Of a stretch of 64,000 bases of DNA, positions 1,916 through 60,063 are shown piece by piece. The stretch comes from Caenorhabditis elegans. Lineage: Eukaryota; Nematoda; Chromadorea; Rhabditida; Rhabditidae. The DNA is taken from contig NC_003279.8 of the NCBI RefSeq assembly GCF_000002985.6, positions 4,960,001-5,024,000 of the forward strand, in the 5' to 3' direction. The translations under genes and the position numbers were made by a program. Below the pieces are notes generated by a model. It had not been told where the DNA came from and made no database searches. It saw nothing but the letters and a program-made list of their open reading frames with translations. Positions within the stretch are counted from its first letter, which is position 1; each line of letters begins with the position of its first letter.

Positions 1916-2225
1916 TGGTGCGTCCATAGTCTGCGGAAAACGGGAATTTCCCGCGTACGGAAGCGTCCATAGTCTGCGGAAAAACCGGAGTTCCTCGCTT
2001 TTTTTTCCTCAAAATTCAAAAAAGTAGGCGTGGCCAACCAATCAGCTGTTGTTTCTTGTTTTCCCATTGCTCAGCTTAAAATTTTACAGCCTCTAATTGG
2101 TTGAACACGCCCACTATTTTGAAATTGACCAATAACAAAGCGAGAAACTCCTTGTTTTTTTCCGCAGACTATGGACCCTTCCGCACGCGGGACTTTCCCG
2201 TTTTCCGCAGACTATGGACGCACCA
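1916..2225. mobile_element. 310-bp palindromic MITE, PIF/Harbinger-like
   Basis: The two ends are inverted copies: TGGTGCGTCCATAGTCTGCG on the left and its reverse complement on the right, continuing through GGAAAACGGGAA. A second inner copy of GTCCATAGTCTGCGGAAAA lies on each side, so each arm is a nested repeat. TAA flanks the element on both sides (1913-1915 and 2226-2228), fitting the 3-bp TWA target duplication of PIF/Harbinger elements. No transposase is encoded. The superfamily assignment rests only on the target-site duplication. Confidence 0.8.
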
Positions 2226-2440
2226 TAAGCAAGGGTCTAACTTCTTTCAAAAATTTCGTTAAAATTTTCACGGTTTTCTTCCACACCGCCCATAAATGTC
2301 GCGGGCAGTACGGTATTTTCTGTTTTCTGTTTTTAATATTTTCCCTACTTTACTCTTTTCTTCTATTGAAATGCGTTGTAGTAAATACCTTGAAATACCT
2401 TGTTGTTTTCCATTCTCCTACGTAGCGTATTTTCACCTTA

Positions 2441-2451
2441 TTCATTACAGC
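2441..2451 (+). promoter_or_regulatory. Trans-splice-like acceptor for pid-4
   Basis: TTCATTACAG ends one base before the pid-4 ATG, after a T-rich stretch and with no plausible upstream coding exon. This is the usual form of a C. elegans SL1 addition site. The spliced leader type cannot be told from sequence. Confidence 0.55.
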
Positions 2452-4238
2452 ATGAACACGCATAACGCGAGGGATTCGGACGACGAATCGCCATTGGAAA
2501 GCGAGGAGCATTTGAAGCGTTTCTTCGCAGGAAGTAAGTTTTTCGTTAAGGAAATGTTAAATAATATGCATTTTTTTCAGGAAACCTCTATAGTCAGACG
2601 AAGATCGATGACGCACGGAAGAAGAGCCACGATGCAAAGTACGCGAAAGAGGTGGAATGGGATGCAAAAGATACTGCAAAAGGCAAGCCGGTGTTCAAGA
2701 AGTATCGGCAAGAGATTGCCGATAAAACTAGCCGATGCGACGCCCAATTCATCAACAATCTTCACACCTACTATGGCAATGGTAGTGAATTGAGAGAGCT
2801 CCCCGAAACTCACTATGCCGTCGATTTCATGGTATAGTTGAATATCATCCTTCAGAGATGTGGTTCTCAAAAAAATAATTCCAGGGAACCACCATCGCTA
2901 CCACGGAAATGACCGCCGAACTGAAGAAGTTAAAGGTGATATATACAACAATGAACAATCACTAATAAACATAATTTGCAGGTGCTCAAGAAGAAAACGG
3001 CCACATCACAATTCGTTCGGGAGCACAGACAGCTCGGATTCATCCCTACTCCTTCGCGAAGATCGCTATCTTGTACTGGCCGTTTCATGAACTTCGAAAC
3101 GAAATGTGATGAGCGCCCGGACAGAACGAACCCAGAATTTTCGGTTGGAAACAATAATTTCCTGAGCGCAACAATCTCCAATCTCGACGAGGATTTCAAA
3201 ACACCATCGAACTGTGAGCATGTAGCCTCCATCGTGCCCAAAGAGATTTCAAATGCGCTGACTGCATTGATACCTCATGTGAATGTTTTCGATTACGAAA
3301 AGGGAGAGATGGAAATCGGAAAAGTCCTCTGCAGCAACAAAAATCTTCATGCGTATGTGATCCCTAAACAACACGATCAGGAGCAAATGCTGAAAGATTT
3401 TTCCGCTCGATTCTTGGCTTGGTACAACAAACTATCACATCTTCAAAGAGATACGTTTGGAACCGACAAAGACCCCAAAAGATCAGGAAAACAAGAAGAT
3501 GGGAAGCCGATGAAGCCATATTTTTGGAGAGTCAATGTTATTTTGTGCCTCCAGGAGTTTCAGGAAGAGGGTACAATGTTCCGAAGAGCTCGTCATGTCT
3601 GTGGTATTCGTCCTCACAAAAGTCAACCCGGACTCGATTTGTATATCGAGATTGACACAGGAAGTATGAGAGCTCTGAAGACGAATTATCTGACTGTGAG
3701 AAAATTGCCGCAGGAGTTCGCGAATGTCCCAACTCCAATCCTTGAAGTTCGATTTGAAGGTGCCAAGGTGAGCAATTTTTCTCATACACATCCAGTGTAT
3801 CTTGTTTTTTCAGACCGAAGAAGATGTTGCCCGGAGAATCGCGCACATCAGGAAAACGGGTCGTGCATACATCAAATCATTTGATACAGGAAAACGGAAG
3901 ATCTACCAGAACAGCTTTTTTAATGGCCAGCCAAAGGATTGGAGTAACATCGAAACAGCTGTGGTATAAATTTATATTACTCTTTTTCAAAAACGAAATC
4001 CTATTTTCAGTTGCTGCCACCAAAAGAAAGCTCAATGTCGAAGCTGTTCTGTGAGGATAGGGATTGCATGGGACTATGCTGCACAGATCAATGGCTTGAA
4101 AATGCGGAATCATCCCCGGGCATCTCCACAATTCCAGCGTCATGGATCGCCGATAAGAATAAGAAGCCATTCGTGGACAGATCTCCGCAAAAATTCAAAT
4201 TTCCCGCGAGCGGCAGCTATATGAAGCCGGCCAACTAG
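2452..4238 (+). CDS. pid-4: Extended-Tudor protein, PID-4 (small-RNA/germ-granule factor)
   Basis: Six exons join cleanly (about 2452-2533, 2581-2831, 2885-2935, 2982-3767, 3814-3963, 4011-4238) to give about 515 residues. The N-terminus is acidic (DSDDESPLESEE), then Lys-rich and charged. The region from about residue 310 to 440 looks like an extended Tudor domain: FRRARH, a DLYIEIDTGS strand pair where canonical Tudors have FIDYGN, then LRKLP-like VRKLPQEF and ILEVRFEG. From memory, C. elegans PID-4 (W03G9.2) is an eTudor protein that binds PID-2 and acts in heritable piRNA-induced silencing together with its paralogue PID-5. The tail-to-tail app-1 neighbour supports this naming, since PID-5 carries an APP-1-like domain. 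The domain is seen; the gene name is recalled and not searched. AATAAA is at 4366-4371. Confidence 0.8.
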
Positions 4239-4892
4239 TGCTTGATATTCAAGCTTTAATTATTTTTCATCTGTGTCATCAAACCGTATTCTAGTTTACT
4301 TGTTAAGACCCGTTGGTCCGTATTTTTGTTTCTTTTTTTTAAATATTTCAGTTTACGAATCAACAAATAAAAATTATTCATTTTCAAGAATTTGTAAATA
4401 CAGGAAATCGAGGAGAAGTTAAAAGCGAGAATCTTGGATCTATGAGAATGCAGTTCACAACAGCTTCATCAGTTTCGCAACAGTTTTCAATTCAAATTCG
4501 TTATTAACCTTACATCCAATCCTGGCTCACTTGTAAGCACTTTGGCTTGAATCTCTGCACCGATGTCAAAATCCGACAGCAAAATGTCGTCAACCAAACA
4601 TTCTAGCTTACAGTTGTTAAGACCTGCTAGCCGGCATTGTTATTTATGTTTCAATTTTCCAACTAACAAAAGAAAAAGATTCATTCTCAAGTATTAGTAC
4701 AGGAAATCTACGGAAAAGCGAGAAAGAACGACAGGAGAAAAAAAGGGGAATACGGATGAATCATTCGGGGAGAATAAGTTTTACACCAGGATCCAGAAAT
4801 TGTGATAAAAAATAGTTAATTGAGCACAAATTTGCTCAACAAGACGTTGACCGGTTAAAATAATATAAAACATGTTGTAATTGTTCCAGATA
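4239..4892. other. pid-4/app-1 convergent spacer with local tandem duplication
   Basis: The spacer holds both 3' UTRs. A block of pid-4 3' UTR sequence (about 4280-4420) recurs at about 4585-4712: both copies contain TTCTAG-TTAC, GTTAAGACC, ATTCATT-TCAAG and ACAGGAAATC in the same order. Between the copies is a degenerate app-1 exon fragment (4456-4562). So the order is UTR block, app-1 relic, UTR block copy, real app-1, i.e. a partial tandem duplication. Confidence 0.75.
4456..4562 (-). pseudogene. Degenerate app-1 exon fragment
   Basis: This stretch aligns along its whole length, at what looks by eye like about 75-80% identity, with the app-1 exon at about 5149-5262. Shared pieces include CAACAGCTTCA, CAACAGTTTTCAATTC, AATCCTGGCTCA and GTAAGCACTT. 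The matching exon codes for the segment with TIEPGFYAKEKYGIRIEN, which holds two metal-ligand glutamates. The copy has small indels and stops and lacks the rest of the gene, so it cannot be functional. It lies in the same orientation as app-1. Confidence 0.8.
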
Positions 4893-7070
4893 TTTAGATT
4901 GGTTTACAGGCTTCTGCGAGCCATTTCAGCTCATCCGTTTTTCCGCGTTTCTGAAGATGTTCACCAACTTCCTTCAGAACCCGAGCGTGGTATTGATTGA
5001 GCCAATTGATTTCCTCTTCAATCAGAAGAGACTTGTCGACGATCGAAGTTTGAATAGGCACCAAAGTGAGAGACTGAAATTAATAAGTTTATAAAGTTCC
5101 TGGGATCTGGGTATACCTTGAATGTCAAGAAGTTCTGAGCTTTAGACATGACAACAGCTTCAACTGTTTCGTAACAGTTTTCAATTCGAATTCCGTACTT
5201 CTCCTTGGCATAGAATCCTGGCTCAATGGTAAGCACTTGGCTGGCATGAAGCTCTCCACCGGTTGGAACACTACGATGACCGATTCCGACTGAAAATAAA
5301 TATTCAAACAGTTACATTTACTGTTTTCGTCTTACTCGGTCCTTCGTGTACGTTAAGGTAGTGTCCAACACCGTGTCCAGTACCATGTTCAAAATCGAGA
5401 CCAAGCTTCCATAAAGCATCACGAGTCAGCGTGTCCAAACGAGAACCATAGATACCATCAGGGAACTTGGCCCGTGCCAAATTAATGTGTCCCTTCAATA
5501 CAAGAGTATTGTGCAGAATGAACTCTTTCGGTGGGTTCGTGTACCACACAGTTCTCGTCACATCGGTTGTTCCATCTCCATAATGAGCTCCAGAATCGAG
5601 GAGGAACACCTGATTGGCTGCAGCCTTACGATTGCCACTTTCTCCGAGAGGCTTGTAATGGGGAAGTGCTGCGTGATCTCCGACAGCTGATATGGTATCA
5701 AAACTGAAAATAAATATAAATTAAATGTAGTTTTAAATATTTAACAAACGAACCTCAAAGTAACATATTTGTCTTGAAGACTTCTCAAATGGTCTATCTT
5801 ATCAGCTAACTCGATTTCAGTGTATCTTTTTCCAGAGAGCAACTCCTTTTCGAGCCAGCAAAGGAACTCAACAAGAGCAGCACTATCACGAAGCTAGAAA
5901 GAATTAAATTATATCCTAAACGATGCTGTAGCCATTCTTACATGACTGTTTCTCATTCCTTGCATTTCATGATCGTTTTTGGTGGCCTTGGCGGTCTGAA
6001 AAAGATTAAATTTCAAAAATTTCAAGAAATTCATGGAATTACCTGAACCAGGGAAGTGTCAACCATCGAGTTCTCTTCGCCAATAATGCTTCCAATAGCG
6101 TAATTAGTTTCTGGTGTGAGATAAACCATGTGAGGCTCTTTGCTCGCTTCTTTTGCCTTGAGCCAATTGGATATCCATGAATAGACTTCTCCGTATGGAT
6201 GAATCGATACATTCGATTTGTGGAAATGGGCTCGAGATTTCTCATCGAGTTTCTCATTGTCGATAAATACGTGAATCTCGCGCATTGCCACGAAGAGATA
6301 TGAATATGCAAGAGGATTGTACGGGATATCACTTCCTCTAATGTTCAGAAGCCACATAACATCATCAAGAAGAGTAAATACAGCTGCGTCGCACTTTTTT
6401 TGTTTCAGCTTCTCCCGAAGATTCTCGACTTTTTTTGAAGTTGTAAGACCAGTGTCTTCAACATCGAGCACGACTACCTGAAAAGTGGAACATTAAATCC
6501 CGCAGTATAGATCTATCAACTTACTGGCTCACCAGCGAGTCTTGGCCGATCAGTCCAGAACTCGTCGACTAGATTTCCAGGAATCGAGACTGGTTGAAGA
6601 CCTGCTGCCTTCAGACGTTTAAATGTCTTGGAACCAGCGTCGAACGTCGACAGAGTTGGATCAAATCCAATAACGGATCCACGCTCGAGCTCTCTCACAA
6701 GCCAATCAACGACAGTAATCGAATCGGGCTGTCCTTGTTTCATCAATTTCCAGCTGTTGGAATCAAGCTGATTCCCGGCTTGAGTGAAATATCGGCCATC
6801 AGTCCAAAGGAGAGCTTCTCTATCGGTAACAACAACGTAGGCATTGGAACCACTGAAACCAGACAGGAATTTCACTCGAAAATCGTAATCGGCTAGATAT
6901 TCGCTCTGAAAATTAACATTTAGAAGATTATTTGAAGCCTAAAAACCAACATGATGAGCGTCAGTGCTTGGGAGAAGATACGCGACCATCGGCTTGCTGG
7001 AAGTGAGCGCGAGAACCCGTTCCGAATGGAACAAGGATCTCAATTTTGCGAGTTTTTCCAATGCTGTCAT
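4893..7070 (-). CDS. app-1: Xaa-Pro aminopeptidase (aminopeptidase P), APP-1
   Basis: Eight exons, about 616 residues, running from ATG at 7070 to TAA at 4893-4895. It removes N-terminal residues that precede proline, using a dinuclear metal centre. The pita-bread (M24B) fold ligands are all visible: FLLDSGAHYGDGTTDVTR (two Asp), GTGHGVGH (His), TIEPGF and IRIENC (two Glu). The N-terminal half has the creatinase-like domains (FLSGFSGSNAYVVVT, LLWTDGRYFTQA). Length and motifs fit cytosolic aminopeptidase P, with no signal peptide. A TTTTTTTTCAG acceptor (about 7090-7099) precedes the ATG by about 20 bases, probably a trans-splice site. It is convergent with pid-4; a catalytically dead APP-1-like domain is known in PID-5. 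The gene name is recalled from C. elegans. Confidence 0.96.
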
Positions 7071-8006
7071 CACTCCAATTCTGCCCGATCTGAAAAAAAA
7101 AGAAAATTAAAGCTAAACTTGTAAAGAGAAATTTAAAAACCAAGCGTCTAATCGTCTGCACATTTTTCTCGAATTTTAGAGCTGATAACGAATAAAACCA
7201 ACGACGAAATTGTCGATCAATCGTTTTAATACGCAATCACAAATGGTTTTATACATACAGAAATCAAAAATCATCTCTGAATTCTATTGAATGAAAACAA
7301 CAGAGGATGTGGAAATTTTTTGAGAAGAAAACTGAAAAATAACTATTTTTGAAGTCTAAAAATGTTTTAAAATGAAAAATTAACTGCCGAATCGAGAACG
7401 AACGCTGTTCCAAAAAATGAGAAGAGTATCTACGGACTCGAGATCTCTAGACTCAAGAAGTGGAAACTTGGAAAACCGCAAAGGAAACGTTTTGAAATAT
7501 CATTAAAAGACGAAAATTTCAATGAAAATGTTAATTTCACTGTGGATCATTTAAAATATTAACTTTATTCGTGTCCTGATACGAATTATCCACGCTTTTT
7601 TTCAGAAATTTTTATGACACGAGGTCTCACAGGCCTCTAATCGGTGGTGACTCGAAAGCTGAGAAGGCGCGCTCTATTGATGGGTCAAAAAAGGAGGAGA
7701 TTTGAAAATGAGTTTCGCTCGAAATTCAGGTCTAGAATTTTAGAAAATAACCTTTAAAAAATACTCATAATAAATTTGTTGAACAAACTGTGAACAGCAA
7801 AACCCAAACTCGCATCGCGGTTTTTTATTTCCTCTCCAAAAATTTACGCGTGCGAAAATTAATGAATAATGAAAATTTCAGTCTGGAAATTCATTCTTTC
7901 GTATTCAAAAAAATTAAGAAAAAGAAAAATTGTTTTTTTTCAAAATCGTAATTTTTAGCACGATTACATCTGTCTGTGTGTCTACAAAATTAAAAAATAA
8001 AATTTA
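7071..8006. other. Intergenic, 5' of app-1 and 3' of kinase gene
   Basis: AT-rich. It contains the app-1 acceptor near 7090 and the 3' UTR of the kinase gene. I see no open frame with plausible splicing and no RNA gene. Confidence 0.6.
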
Positions 8007-39800: not shown

Positions 39801-42350
39801 AGCCAGGAACGAGTTGCGATGAGGATTGTGGATCGCAATATGAAGAGTTCGTTTTTGATCCCTACCACCTGATTTTTTGTTTGAATATCTAATTTTTAAA
39901 TCACTAAGTTTGCTGGATTTTTTCCCTTACAGAATTTCTAATTTCGGGTGCATTTCTTCTTTTTTCTTAGTTGGCTGTAATTGATACCTTCCAAATAGCT
40001 TGTCGTGATTTTTGAAAACCGTGAAGCTGCATTTCAGAATTTTTGAGTTAAAACTGGGGGGTTTTGTCCAAAATTACAGAAGGCAATCTGCATACACCGG
40101 ATAGAACTTCAAAAAAAATCATCTAAATTTTATAGTTAATCACTCACTACATTGGATATTCGCGGAACTTCATGTTTCTATCCAACCATAGATCATCTAA
40201 CTGTTCTTCAAAATTGTTTAGAAAATATAATTACAGTACAATCACTCTCAAGCAGTTACTCCTTGGAACGAAAAAGCTATGCGGAAGACGTAAGAGACAT
40301 TTGACCCGACTCACTTCAAGATGGCCGTGTTTTTCAGTCGATCCGACGAAGGTAATTCTTAAAAAACTATAATTTCAAAGCTTAAGTGCAATTATTTCAG
40401 ATCAATTCATATTTCAATGAAACTGGTGTCACTTTGCTGGAAAATTCGTGTTCCTACCGTCCTGGAACTCAACGAAGCATTCCAATAAAACCTACCCGAG
40501 TGATCAGAGTTAGAGAAGAAACTCCAGTTTCCGTTCCAATTGAGGTTATTACGATTGAAGATGATTCAGATGATTCACCATGTTTTTCTGCGAGAAATCG
40601 AGCACCAGGTGGAACACGGAAATATGGATTAGATTTTATACAATCTTCGGGTCATATGCCATATATTCGTTATGTTTATATGAACAGGTAATTTGATTTA
40701 ATGCAATCCAGTAAAAAAATATATGATTTGCAGAGCAAATGACTTAGTGCCCCAGCTGAATGGCGAAGAAAATGGAAAAATCGAAGGTCTTATGGAAGCA
40801 TATCCGATGAATAATGCTCACATGTATTCAGATATTGAGTTCCTGAGAAAAGAAAAAGTAAGAATTGTTTTTAAAAAAAAGACATAAAAGTTGTAATAAT
40901 TTTCGCTTTTTTCACTAAAATCGAAAATGGAATTTTTTGTTTCGATTTACTGATTTTTGCAAAAATAAAACAAAACTTTAAGATTTTTCTTTTTTCCGAT
41001 ATTTCGAAAAAATTGCATAATTTGTTTTCTTTTTAGAAGCAATTTGTATGTATTTCTGAAAAAGCGAACAAAATTGTTTCCTGAAGGCGAAATCTATTTT
41101 TCCCTCAAAAACCCAAAAAAAAAAAAAAAAGTGAGAAAGGAAAAATTGAGAACCTTTCATTATATTTTTTGAATTTTTTGAATTGACTCCAAAAACAGGA
41201 AAAAAAAAACAAAAAATCCCAGCCTTGATTACGATATTAAAAATTTTCTATTGTGACATGTTGCTCCAACAATTTGTATTTAAAATTAATGTCAAAATAT
41301 AGAAAAACACTCGAATTATCTGGAAATAACATTTATTCTGGCTGAAAATTTTGAAAAAGTACTCAAAAAATGTCCTGGAAGTTGCTGATTGCCAATTATC
41401 GAATTATTGAATTTCAGGTAATTTTGAACACTTTCTCGAATGTTTTAGTTGAAAAAAAGTTATTTTCAGATAATTCTAGTGATTCCTGCACTGAACACTA
41501 AAAAAAACTTGTCGCCGCAAACAAAAAAAATTAAAGCAAAATTACAAATTTCAGTTGAATCTTCCGAAGAATGCTCAAAAATATGGCGAAATGACAATTC
41601 TTGACTATCCACTAACGAAGACGGAAACGGACGAATATAATAAAAAGATGTCTGTGATGAATGTCAAAGATTTTGCGGTTAAACCCAGAAAACCTATTCC
41701 AACAGTCGGAAATACCACTTTAAGTTTGGATTTGGAAGGATGTCCTATATCGACATTTTCAGAAATATTCTTCCCAAGTGGAAAAACTGAACTATTCAAT
41801 ATTCTATGCAGACAGTAAGTGTTATAATATTAAGTCATATATTAAAACCCAATTTTTGAAGTTTCTACTCTGAAGCTGGACAACGCCCTGGATGCTTCTC
41901 AGCACAATGGAAATCTAGAGTTTTGGTGAGTTTATTGAACATTCAGGACTAGATTGGCAAACGTACGGAATTGCTTAGTACAGTATTTTTGAATCAAAAC
42001 CTTTAAACTTCTTTTCAACGAAAATGAAAATTATTTTCAGAGTCTTTGATTCTACAAAAAATGAATTAGCGTACTAAAATAAGCATCTCAACACTTTTGC
42101 CAAGATTTGCCTTAACTTAGAACGCATTTTTGAATTTTTCATAAATAATTTTCAGACTGGCTTCATCAACAAATACCATCAGTACATTTTCGACATGAAA
42201 TTGAATTCTTTATTCGAGAAACAAATAAATCTCATCGCTATGGTCAGCCCTGACTGGAAATTAGAAGATTTTGAATTGCCCATGGTTCGATATAAGCAAT
42301 TGAAAAAAGAATGGAAAAATCGCCAACGAGATATACCATCTTCTAATTAG
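36844..42350 (+). CDS. mes-3: MES-3, Polycomb repressive complex 2 subunit (SUZ12-like)
   Basis: A gene of a dozen or so exons from ATG at 36844 to TAG at 42348-42350, about 750 residues. The N-terminus is basic and Ser-rich (GGRKRKNDE, ...SRRKNPPTK), then mostly globular segments with no classical motif: EIRNYVKKYGLPEDNKFLV, SAAIVQSYVIIVDDNDSV, SENFQQLVRFGCTLMYDKD, TITLKQLLLGTKKLCGRR. The C-terminal half ends LKKEWKNRQRDIPSSN. MES-3 works with MES-2 (E(z)) and MES-6 (ESC) to deposit H3K27 methylation in the germline, and structure predictions place it as a divergent SUZ12. A segment VITIEDDSDDSPCF resembles a SUMO-interacting motif. Introns are long and A/T-tract-rich, and two contain MITE copies. 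The gene name follows from the dom-3 neighbour and recalled operon structure. Confidence 0.92.
37205..37470. mobile_element. MITE copy in first mes-3 intron
   Basis: Two inverted arms of about 100 bp: ATAACATTTATTTAAGCTGA on the left and TAAATGTTATTTTCAGAT on the right, with GCCATTTTTGAACA mirrored by TTCAAAAATGGC. A short loop (TTTAATCAGCAATTGGC) separates them. Outer limits are approximate. Confidence 0.7.
41290..41480. mobile_element. MITE copy in a late mes-3 intron
   Basis: Same family as the copy at 37205-37470: AATTATCTGGAAATAACATT, GCTGAAAATTTTGAAAAAGT, GCCAATTATCGAATT, then the inverse AAAGTTATTTTCAGATAATT. More degenerate and shorter; limits are approximate. Confidence 0.6.
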
Positions 42351-43464
42351 ATTATCCCCTTTTTTCCTTGTATCTTTTTCTTTTTGGAAATCCTGTGTTT
42401 AATCTCTTTTCCATTTATCAATCAACTATACCAAATCGTGGTGGGTGGCAATTCTACTAAATGACATTAAAAATTAGTCTGAAAACATAGAAAATAATTT
42501 GATTCTTCTGCAAATAACATTTGTTTCAGTTGAAACACTTGAAAAAATGATTAAAAATTACCTGGAAGTTGGAAATTGTCGAATTTTGCTATTCGGCAAT
42601 TGGAAACTTTCAGACTATTTTTGTGCAATTTTCAAATCTTTCAGCTGAAATAAATGTTATTTTCATATTTTTAAATAAATTAATTTTCTATTTTGAGACT
42701 AATTTTTAATGAACAATATTGGCCAATTTATGGAATTGCCAAAAGTAATTTCCACCCACCGCTGATCCCAAAAATACTACAATTTTTAGCACCTTTTGAC
42801 CCAAAGAACGTCGTACTTCAATGATCTTCCAGATTACACGAGTCATCACTAAGTTTTTCTTCATTTCTTTTTCTTTCATTTAAGTTTTTTTCTATCCATT
42901 TTATAAGTTCTTTCCTTGATTGTTCTCTGCTCTACAACTCTTCTTTCTACTCACACTCCATGGATGTTGTGAAGCTTCTGTTATTTTGGAAATTTTATAA
43001 TTTTACACAACTATTTGTACTATCCACTTTCAAGTTTTAATATTATCATTTTATCTCTCTGTTTTTTTAATCAATATTTTGACAAAAAATTTCATTTGCC
43101 AAAATTTTTTGTAACAATCAACTATATCATTAATGCCACACCTATAAAATGCTTAAACATATGTCCGGATTTATTGGGAAGTTAAGAAATAATTGTCGTA
43201 TGGTCAGAAGTTTAAAATATACCTCAAGCTTTAAAAAATCGGTTATAACTCCAATCAAGGATGCCATGGAAAATTTTTGGCACTCGTCGTATTTCCGAAT
43301 TTTCGACAATTCGACAAAAAAAAGGCATTTTTTGAAAATCTTAAACTCAAAATCTCCAACTTTTCCAAACTACAGTAATCCTACAGTAACCCTACATTGT
43401 GGTCTACCGCTGCTCCAAATTGTCAAAAACATTAAAATTCAATCATTTAGAAAACACTAAAAAA
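42351..43464. other. mes-3/dom-3 intercistronic spacer
   Basis: About 1.1 kb between two genes reported to share an operon. A MITE fills 42440-42761. Another repeat-like segment (about 43260-43390, with CTACAGTAATCCTACAGTAA) follows. ATCATTTAG at about 43442-43450, 15 bases before the dom-3 ATG, is the best trans-splice acceptor. The 103-codon ORF at 43149 looks like repeat-derived noise. Confidence 0.6.
42440..42761. mobile_element. MITE with GGTGGGTGG termini
   Basis: The most complete copy of the family also found in two mes-3 introns. The ends are GGTGGGTGGCAATT and AATTTCCACCCACC. Inner arms carry AAAATTAGTCTGAAAACATA / TTTGAGACTAATTTTTAATG and AATAACATTTGTTTCAGTTG / CAGCTGAAATAAATGTTATT, in inverse order. 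No transposase is present. Its AATAAA-containing arm falls in the mes-3 3' region. Confidence 0.78.
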
Positions 43465-59002: not shown

Positions 59003-60063
59003 TTAATCAGACTCTCCAGCCATCAACTCCCAGAACTCCTCGAACTCAATCTTTCCGGAACCGTCCTCGTCAATCTCGTCGACAGCCTCCTCGAGTTGTT
59101 GATCGGTGAGGTCATCGGCGATTTCTTTGAGAAGAGCCTTCAGAGTTGGTCGAGAAATATATCCGTTACCCTGAAAAATTAATAATTAAAGAATAAAAAG
59201 CAAAATCTAAAAGTACAAACCTCCTTGTCGAAAAGACGGAAAGCTTCACGAAGTTCTTTCTCCAATGTTTCCTTGTCGACAGTGTTTGCAACGGTGTACA
59301 CGAGAGCGCAGAACTCGTCAAACTCGAGCTTTCCGGAACCGTCAGCGTCGAACTTGCGGATCAGTTTACGAAGGGTCTAAAAGAATGAAGTTAGATGCCA
59401 CATAGATTTAGAAAAATCAAAATCATCAATTCTATAACTAAATTTCATAACATATAGTTATATCTTACTTTAGTCGACATAATAAATGCTTTTGTTCAGA
59501 TGGAATATCAAAATTAATTATTTCACAAACATTAGTAACATGTTTTAGTGGCGAAAATTAATTGAATTCAGTTGAGAAACAAGCCGCAGAAGATAGGTCG
59601 GATAAAAACAAAATTTTAGGCAAGAGTAACCCATTTATATTTTCGGTTATCTTACTCAGTTGGCCTACCTAATCATTACCGTGAAACCTAAATTTAAAAG
59701 AGTTGAAAACTTCCTAATTTGAATTATCACTCTTCTGAAGATCCCCTAACTCTACATAAACCAAAAGTTCCAAAATGATTTACCTTCTCATCGAAATCCT
59801 GTTCCATTCCATGCATGATTTGACCGATCTGAGTGGCCATGATGTATCCTTGCTTTCCTCTGTCGAAGGCATCGAAGAACTTTTGGTATTCTAGAAAGTT
59901 TTAATGATGATTTTTCAATCATAAATATAAAATATCTTACCCTCAATTTGGGATCCGTCGATTTCAGCAAGAATCTCTTCGATATCCTCAGCCTATAAAA
60001 GTATAAACATATAAAAATTCAAAAAGAAATTTATTGAAGACATGAGAAAGCGGGACTCACCAT
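59003..60063 (-). CDS. pat-10: Troponin C of body-wall muscle, PAT-10
   Basis: 161 residues. The first coding exon is only the ATG (60061-60063), immediately followed by a GTGAGT donor; the second starts at AEDIEEILAEIDGS. Four EF-hands are present in order: the first is degenerate (DRGKQGYIMATQ), and the others have DADGSGKLEFDE, DKEGNGYISRPT and DEDGSGKIEFEE. The second and fourth loops look fully calcium-competent; the third has Ser-Arg-Pro after Ile and may be weak. The protein ends ELMAGESD. As calcium sensor of the thin filament it acts with troponin I and T; loss causes paralysed arrest at two-fold stage. The gene name is recalled and fits position and sequence. Confidence 0.95.

Follow-up and report, generated by a model that had tools for sequence, protein, structure and literature searches.

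The 655 bases between the stop codons of the convergent genes pid-4 and app-1 (4239-4893) hold two copies of the 3′ untranslated region (UTR) of pid-4 and a dead exon of app-1, and together these form a partial direct tandem duplication across the pid-4/app-1 junction, in which two blocks recur with order and orientation unchanged (Table 1). We consider it very probable that this scar goes back to one direct tandem duplication whose first copy was then shortened and decayed, and that the event came later than the origin of pid-5 and had no part in it. A preliminary description of the window, as we call the whole stretch of 64,000 nucleotides analysed here (positions 4960001-5024000 of contig C1, in a genome of 100,286,401 bases and 7 contigs), had pointed out both blocks. 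Its account of a partial tandem duplication with an app-1-derived relic is supported; its further proposals, that the locus duplicates as a unit and that the scar bears on pid-5, are not.

Table 1. Features of the pid-4/app-1 locus, in positions of the window.
Feature	Position	Strand	Remarks
pid-4 coding region	2452..4238	+	6 coding exons, 515 aa, stop 4236-4238; predicted by splice-site enumeration leading to an open frame
UTR copy A (pid-4 3′ region)	4272..4431	+	AATAAA at 4366-4371; aligned with 4585-4724
app-1 exon 7 relic and acceptor side	4437..4585	-	acceptor AG lost, frame broken; aligned with 5137-5297
UTR copy B (second pid-4 3′ region)	4585..4724	+	AATAAA absent from the + strand; AATGAA at 4680-4685 on the - strand
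Single-copy spacer, copy B to app-1 stop codon	4725..4893	.	no second copy
app-1 coding region	4894..7070	-	8 coding exons, 616 aa, stop 4894-4896; predicted by splice-site enumeration
app-1 exon 7 (penultimate, 7th of 8)	5117..5289	-	source of the relic; predicted gene model, alignment
app-1 leader (19 nt) and acceptor AG	7071..7091	-	AG at 7090-7091; acceptor position common to the pid-5 fusion exon

The models of pid-4 and app-1 are predictions based on open frames and splice sites rather than on transcripts. The name pid-4 rests on its use in the preliminary description and on the likeness of the gene to the first half of pid-5, and the translation of app-1 exon 7 matches the solved chain of C. 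elegans APP-1 (PDB-code: 4s2r). Upstream of pid-4 lies a palindromic repeat with arms of 70 nt (1915-1984 and 2157-2226, 94% complementary), and the palindrome at 1915-2226 is likely a MITE-like element.

In local alignments the two UTR copies reach a score of 351, compared to a maximum of 208 in 500 dinucleotide shuffles, and the relic reaches 394 with its app-1 counterpart, compared to a shuffle maximum of 210 (again 500 shuffles). The intervals named in the preliminary description likewise exceed all of 500 dinucleotide shuffles, with scores of 360 for 4452-4570 against 5145-5265 (shuffle maximum 163) and 300 for 4280-4420 against 4585-4712 (shuffle maximum 190), which confirms that the dead exon and the duplicated UTR are present between the two genes. 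The relic core is identical to app-1 at 92/110 aligned bases, and identity between the UTR copies lies between 109/137 and 111/136, the divergence figures varying with gap costs. The relic ends are weaker in the outermost 15-25 bases, and stricter scoring retains 4457-4562 against 5151-5261. A MAFFT alignment with pid-5 as the third row gives 110/152 for relic and app-1, because the badly matching ends are included. A stretch of 23 nt (4561-4583) matches 5274-5296 at 74%, up to and across the app-1 splice acceptor. Since this match continues a few bases into the intron, it points to a copy made from DNA; a processed (retro) or cDNA copy was rejected on the same observation, the similarity passing the exon border to the intron side by few bases only.

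Could the relic have been inserted from elsewhere, as a fragment of pid-5 or some other relative of app-1? In a three-way comparison of relic, app-1 and pid-5 over 151 columns, 68 columns are all alike and 10 all different, while 42 are shared by relic and app-1 only, 11 by relic and pid-5 only, and 20 by app-1 and pid-5 only. With 42 against 11 diagnostic sites the relic is nearer to app-1 than to pid-5, as a local duplication demands and as the preliminary description had supposed. Protein searches of the genome with app-1 and pid-4 gave no matches outside this locus and that of pid-5 on contig C5, and the UTR copy beside the relic is likewise local, which leaves an insertion from elsewhere next to no credibility. 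A whole-genome DNA search with 4280-5262, a search that skips very common words, returned two places, this locus and a set of app-1-like exons on contig C5. The latter match covers positions 4987-5239 of the window, which are the real app-1 exons and not the relic. A second copy of 4725-4893 was found neither in the spacer nor by the whole-genome DNA search.

The relic bears no sign of coding constraint: the acceptor is lost, and the gaps that break the frame (14 and 2 nt, or single-base gaps in another alignment) are not multiples of three. The full list of codon changes has 36 entries, 26 of them nonsynonymous, from which 11 at window 5121-5138 were dropped for doubtful alignment; the 25 kept for the relic core fall on codon positions 1, 2 and 3 in numbers of 7, 8 and 10, and 19 are nonsynonymous, including three changes to stops. 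The relic is best read as a neutral app-1 fragment, a pseudo-exon. We weighed this against the idea that it has been kept for a function, either as an alternative app-1 exon or as an antisense source of small RNAs against app-1. The relic would be antisense to app-1 if read together with pid-4, and it shares one exact run of 15 nt with app-1, but this longest exact run is shorter than a small RNA, and the sole pid-4 AATAAA in the spacer (4366) is upstream of the relic. No Rfam family matches at 4100-5400 at gathering score. With the acceptor lost, the frame broken and the changes spread across codon positions, a retained function is very unlikely.

The order of copy A, relic, copy B, single-copy spacer and app-1 fits one direct duplication if approximately 400 bp were lost, and copy B begins at about 4585, where the relic ends, like a tandem junction. 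A direct tandem duplication would have begun approximately 33 nt past the stop codon of pid-4 and reached roughly as far as the border between intron 6 and exon 7 in app-1, and the shared 3′ junction would thereby have been present as two copies in tandem. A loss of approximately 400 bp would then have removed from the first copy what remained of the spacer along with exon 8, intron 7 and the end of exon 7 of app-1. The app-1 exon fragment left in this copy would have decayed unconstrained, while copy two stayed the working end of app-1. A simple tandem duplication has equal offsets, whereas here the offset is 303-314 for the UTR block and 694-713 for the exon block, so that one has to assume either that copy one suffered a deletion or that a second jump took place. 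The breakpoints are no longer legible to the base.

An alternative route to an identical product would be one replication error involving two template jumps. Such a repair or template-switch patch, in which the app-1 exon piece and the pid-4 UTR piece were copied in one complex event and no duplication was followed by deletion, accounts for the unequal offsets in one step; it requires two jumps, however, and as its product is the same as that of duplication and deletion, nothing here separates the two. We regard it as possible though doubtful, and we infer a single duplication event followed by a deletion. Divergence per site is 0.17-0.19 between relic and app-1 and 0.21-0.24 between the UTR copies, and such similar values for the two blocks are as expected of one event, with app-1's own exon changing slowly.

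The two copies of the UTR block raise the question of where the transcripts of the converging genes end. As judged from the signals in the DNA, pid-4 and app-1 might once have shared one overlapping 3′ end, of which the duplication would have given each gene its own copy, but we hold this to be improbable. Copy A has retained AATAAA for pid-4 and copy B is without it, and the AATGAA of copy B on the opposite strand sits 208 nt past the app-1 stop. Among worms, AAUGAA is common as a variant signal. A further candidate signal, AATTAA, follows the app-1 stop after only 72 nt and counts against this reading. If the reading were true, the duplication would have uncoupled the converging genes at their 3′ ends, and it could relieve overlap and double-stranded RNA between a gene of the small-RNA pathway and its neighbour.

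The scar and pid-5 differ in age. The preliminary description had suggested that the duplication be dated against the pid-5 split, and the two ages proved unequal: the divergence of 0.17-0.24 per site within the scar compares with synonymous sites that are saturated both between app-1 and pid-5 (pS 0.79, 565 codons) and between pid-4 and pid-5 (pS 0.76, 338 codons), both values being too high for a distance to be computed. Where a tblastn match contains a stop, columns within 25 residues of it are omitted from these counts. At a mutation rate of 2.33e-9, given in PMC12440214, divergences of 0.17, 0.24 and 0.4 per site correspond to approximately 36, 52 and 86 million generations, and according to the same paper the split from C. 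inopinata dates back approximately 428 and that from C. briggsae approximately 530 million generations. With the rate of 9.0e-9 from PMC6086898, which puts the C. inopinata split at 142.73 million generations, the scar would be 9-22 million generations old. Orthologs of pid-5 are reported in C. remanei, C. brenneri and C. briggsae in PMC7849312. On either clock, with ages derived from divergence and published dates, the scar is estimated to be several times younger than pid-5, unless it was refreshed by gene conversion; conversion between a copy and its source could make the scar seem too young.

Could the scar nevertheless have been left by a process of duplication at this locus from which the pid-5 fusion arose? 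Both parents are adjacent here, pid-5 holds relatives of both, and the scar crosses the very junction between them. In passages of PMC7849312 it is stated that pid-4 directly adjoins app-1, and it is suggested there that pid-5 formed by joining the two; C. japonica, in which pid-4 also adjoins app-1, is reported in the same passages to have yielded no pid-5 ortholog. The joining idea is repeated in a passage of PMC10377022, and an origin of pid-5 in some pid-4/app-1 rearrangement has already been suggested in print. Against a role for the scar stand its age, its orientation and its parts. Its divergence is far from the saturation seen for pid-5. It is a direct repeat of converging tails, and a direct duplication of two such tails cannot yield a fusion on one strand. 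It holds only 3′ ends, and a pid-4 3′ end together with an app-1 5′ end on one strand is not found in it, whereas the end of app-1 used at the pid-5 joint is the 5′ and not the 3′ one. The copying took in no more than the two 3′ tails, and duplication of the locus as a unit is not supported.

Strong local direct repeats are, moreover, common in this genome. When 20 10-kb pieces drawn at random were each compared with themselves by blastn, 10 contained non-overlapping direct pairs that scored 45 bits or more and were separated by less than 2 kb, and 8 contained pairs of at least 97.8 bits, the score of the relic; the random pieces are unannotated, so that transposons and gene arrays are counted in, and the control counts single pairs and not the two-block order of the scar. 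Among the window's first six 10-kb pieces three have a pair (the scar, 41278/42466 and 59031/59309), and only the scar reaches 97.8 bits. The other two are a diverged local direct repeat (41278-41471 and 42466-42668; 80.6 bits, shift 1188) and a short one (59031-59071 and 59309-59349; 41 nt, 85% identity, shift 278). Taken with the frequency of such pairs, the age and the geometry of the scar make a connection with the origin of pid-5 highly improbable, and the link is not supported. Tempting but wrong evidence on pid-5 is thereby removed, as the visible scar is recent and unrelated.

The fusion point of pid-5 itself gives a sharper and testable account, in which the last coding exon of pid-4 is joined to the first exon of app-1 through the app-1 5′ acceptor. 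The pid-5 locus (contig C5, L003) has its pid-4-like part at 2062-4295 and, downstream on the same strand, its app-1-like part at 5006-7147. The joint, as modelled, is one intron of 692 nt (L003:4283-4974), preceded by the last pid-4 exon in shortened form and followed by a 139-nt exon (4975-5113). The first exon of app-1, which extends between the 5′ acceptor (7089) and the donor (6951), likewise measures 139 nt. In the app-1 first exon and in the pid-5 fusion exon alike, the distance from the acceptor to the codons EKL and DKL is 31 nt, and app-1's 19 nt leader corresponds to codons in pid-5. The equal exon length, the EKL/DKL spacing and the leader read as codons indicate that app-1 and pid-5 share the acceptor position. 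It seems that pid-5 splices into app-1's own 5′ acceptor, and this reused acceptor is probably a spliced-leader site; in those parts of the literature that were searched for app-1 and trans-splicing, the word trans-spliced was not found. Most simply, pid-5 arose when a whole app-1, turned round, was placed downstream of pid-4, and a donor in the last pid-4 exon would then splice to app-1's own 5′ acceptor.

Five comparisons of the spacer and the parental flanks with the pid-5 intron and flanks revealed no leftover similarity, the real score being reached by 53, 55, 10, 54 and 10 of 60 simple shuffles, respectively. The fusion intron is nearly filled by a palindromic MITE-like repeat (L003:4314-4957, arms up to 96% complementary), which belongs to a dispersed family; with 40 of 1243 candidates scored, the genome gives at least 74 matches.

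The scar may finally be set beside two known systems. With pid-5 (Y45G5AM.2), as described in passages of PMC7849312, it has in common a relationship to the same two genes. It differs in that pid-5 is much older, lies on another chromosome (contig C5) and consists of near-full-length parts, with app-1 on the strand of pid-4. A description of the relic itself was not found in those parts of the literature that were searched. Partial local tandem duplications and pseudo-exons are a class present in the C. elegans genome, and the scar resembles its members in being short, direct, local and made from DNA, with one copy decayed. It differs from them in covering the tails of two converging genes and in missing approximately 400 bp inside the first copy. 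The scar is a real but ordinary local duplication of this class, young, neutral and partial, across a convergent gene junction.
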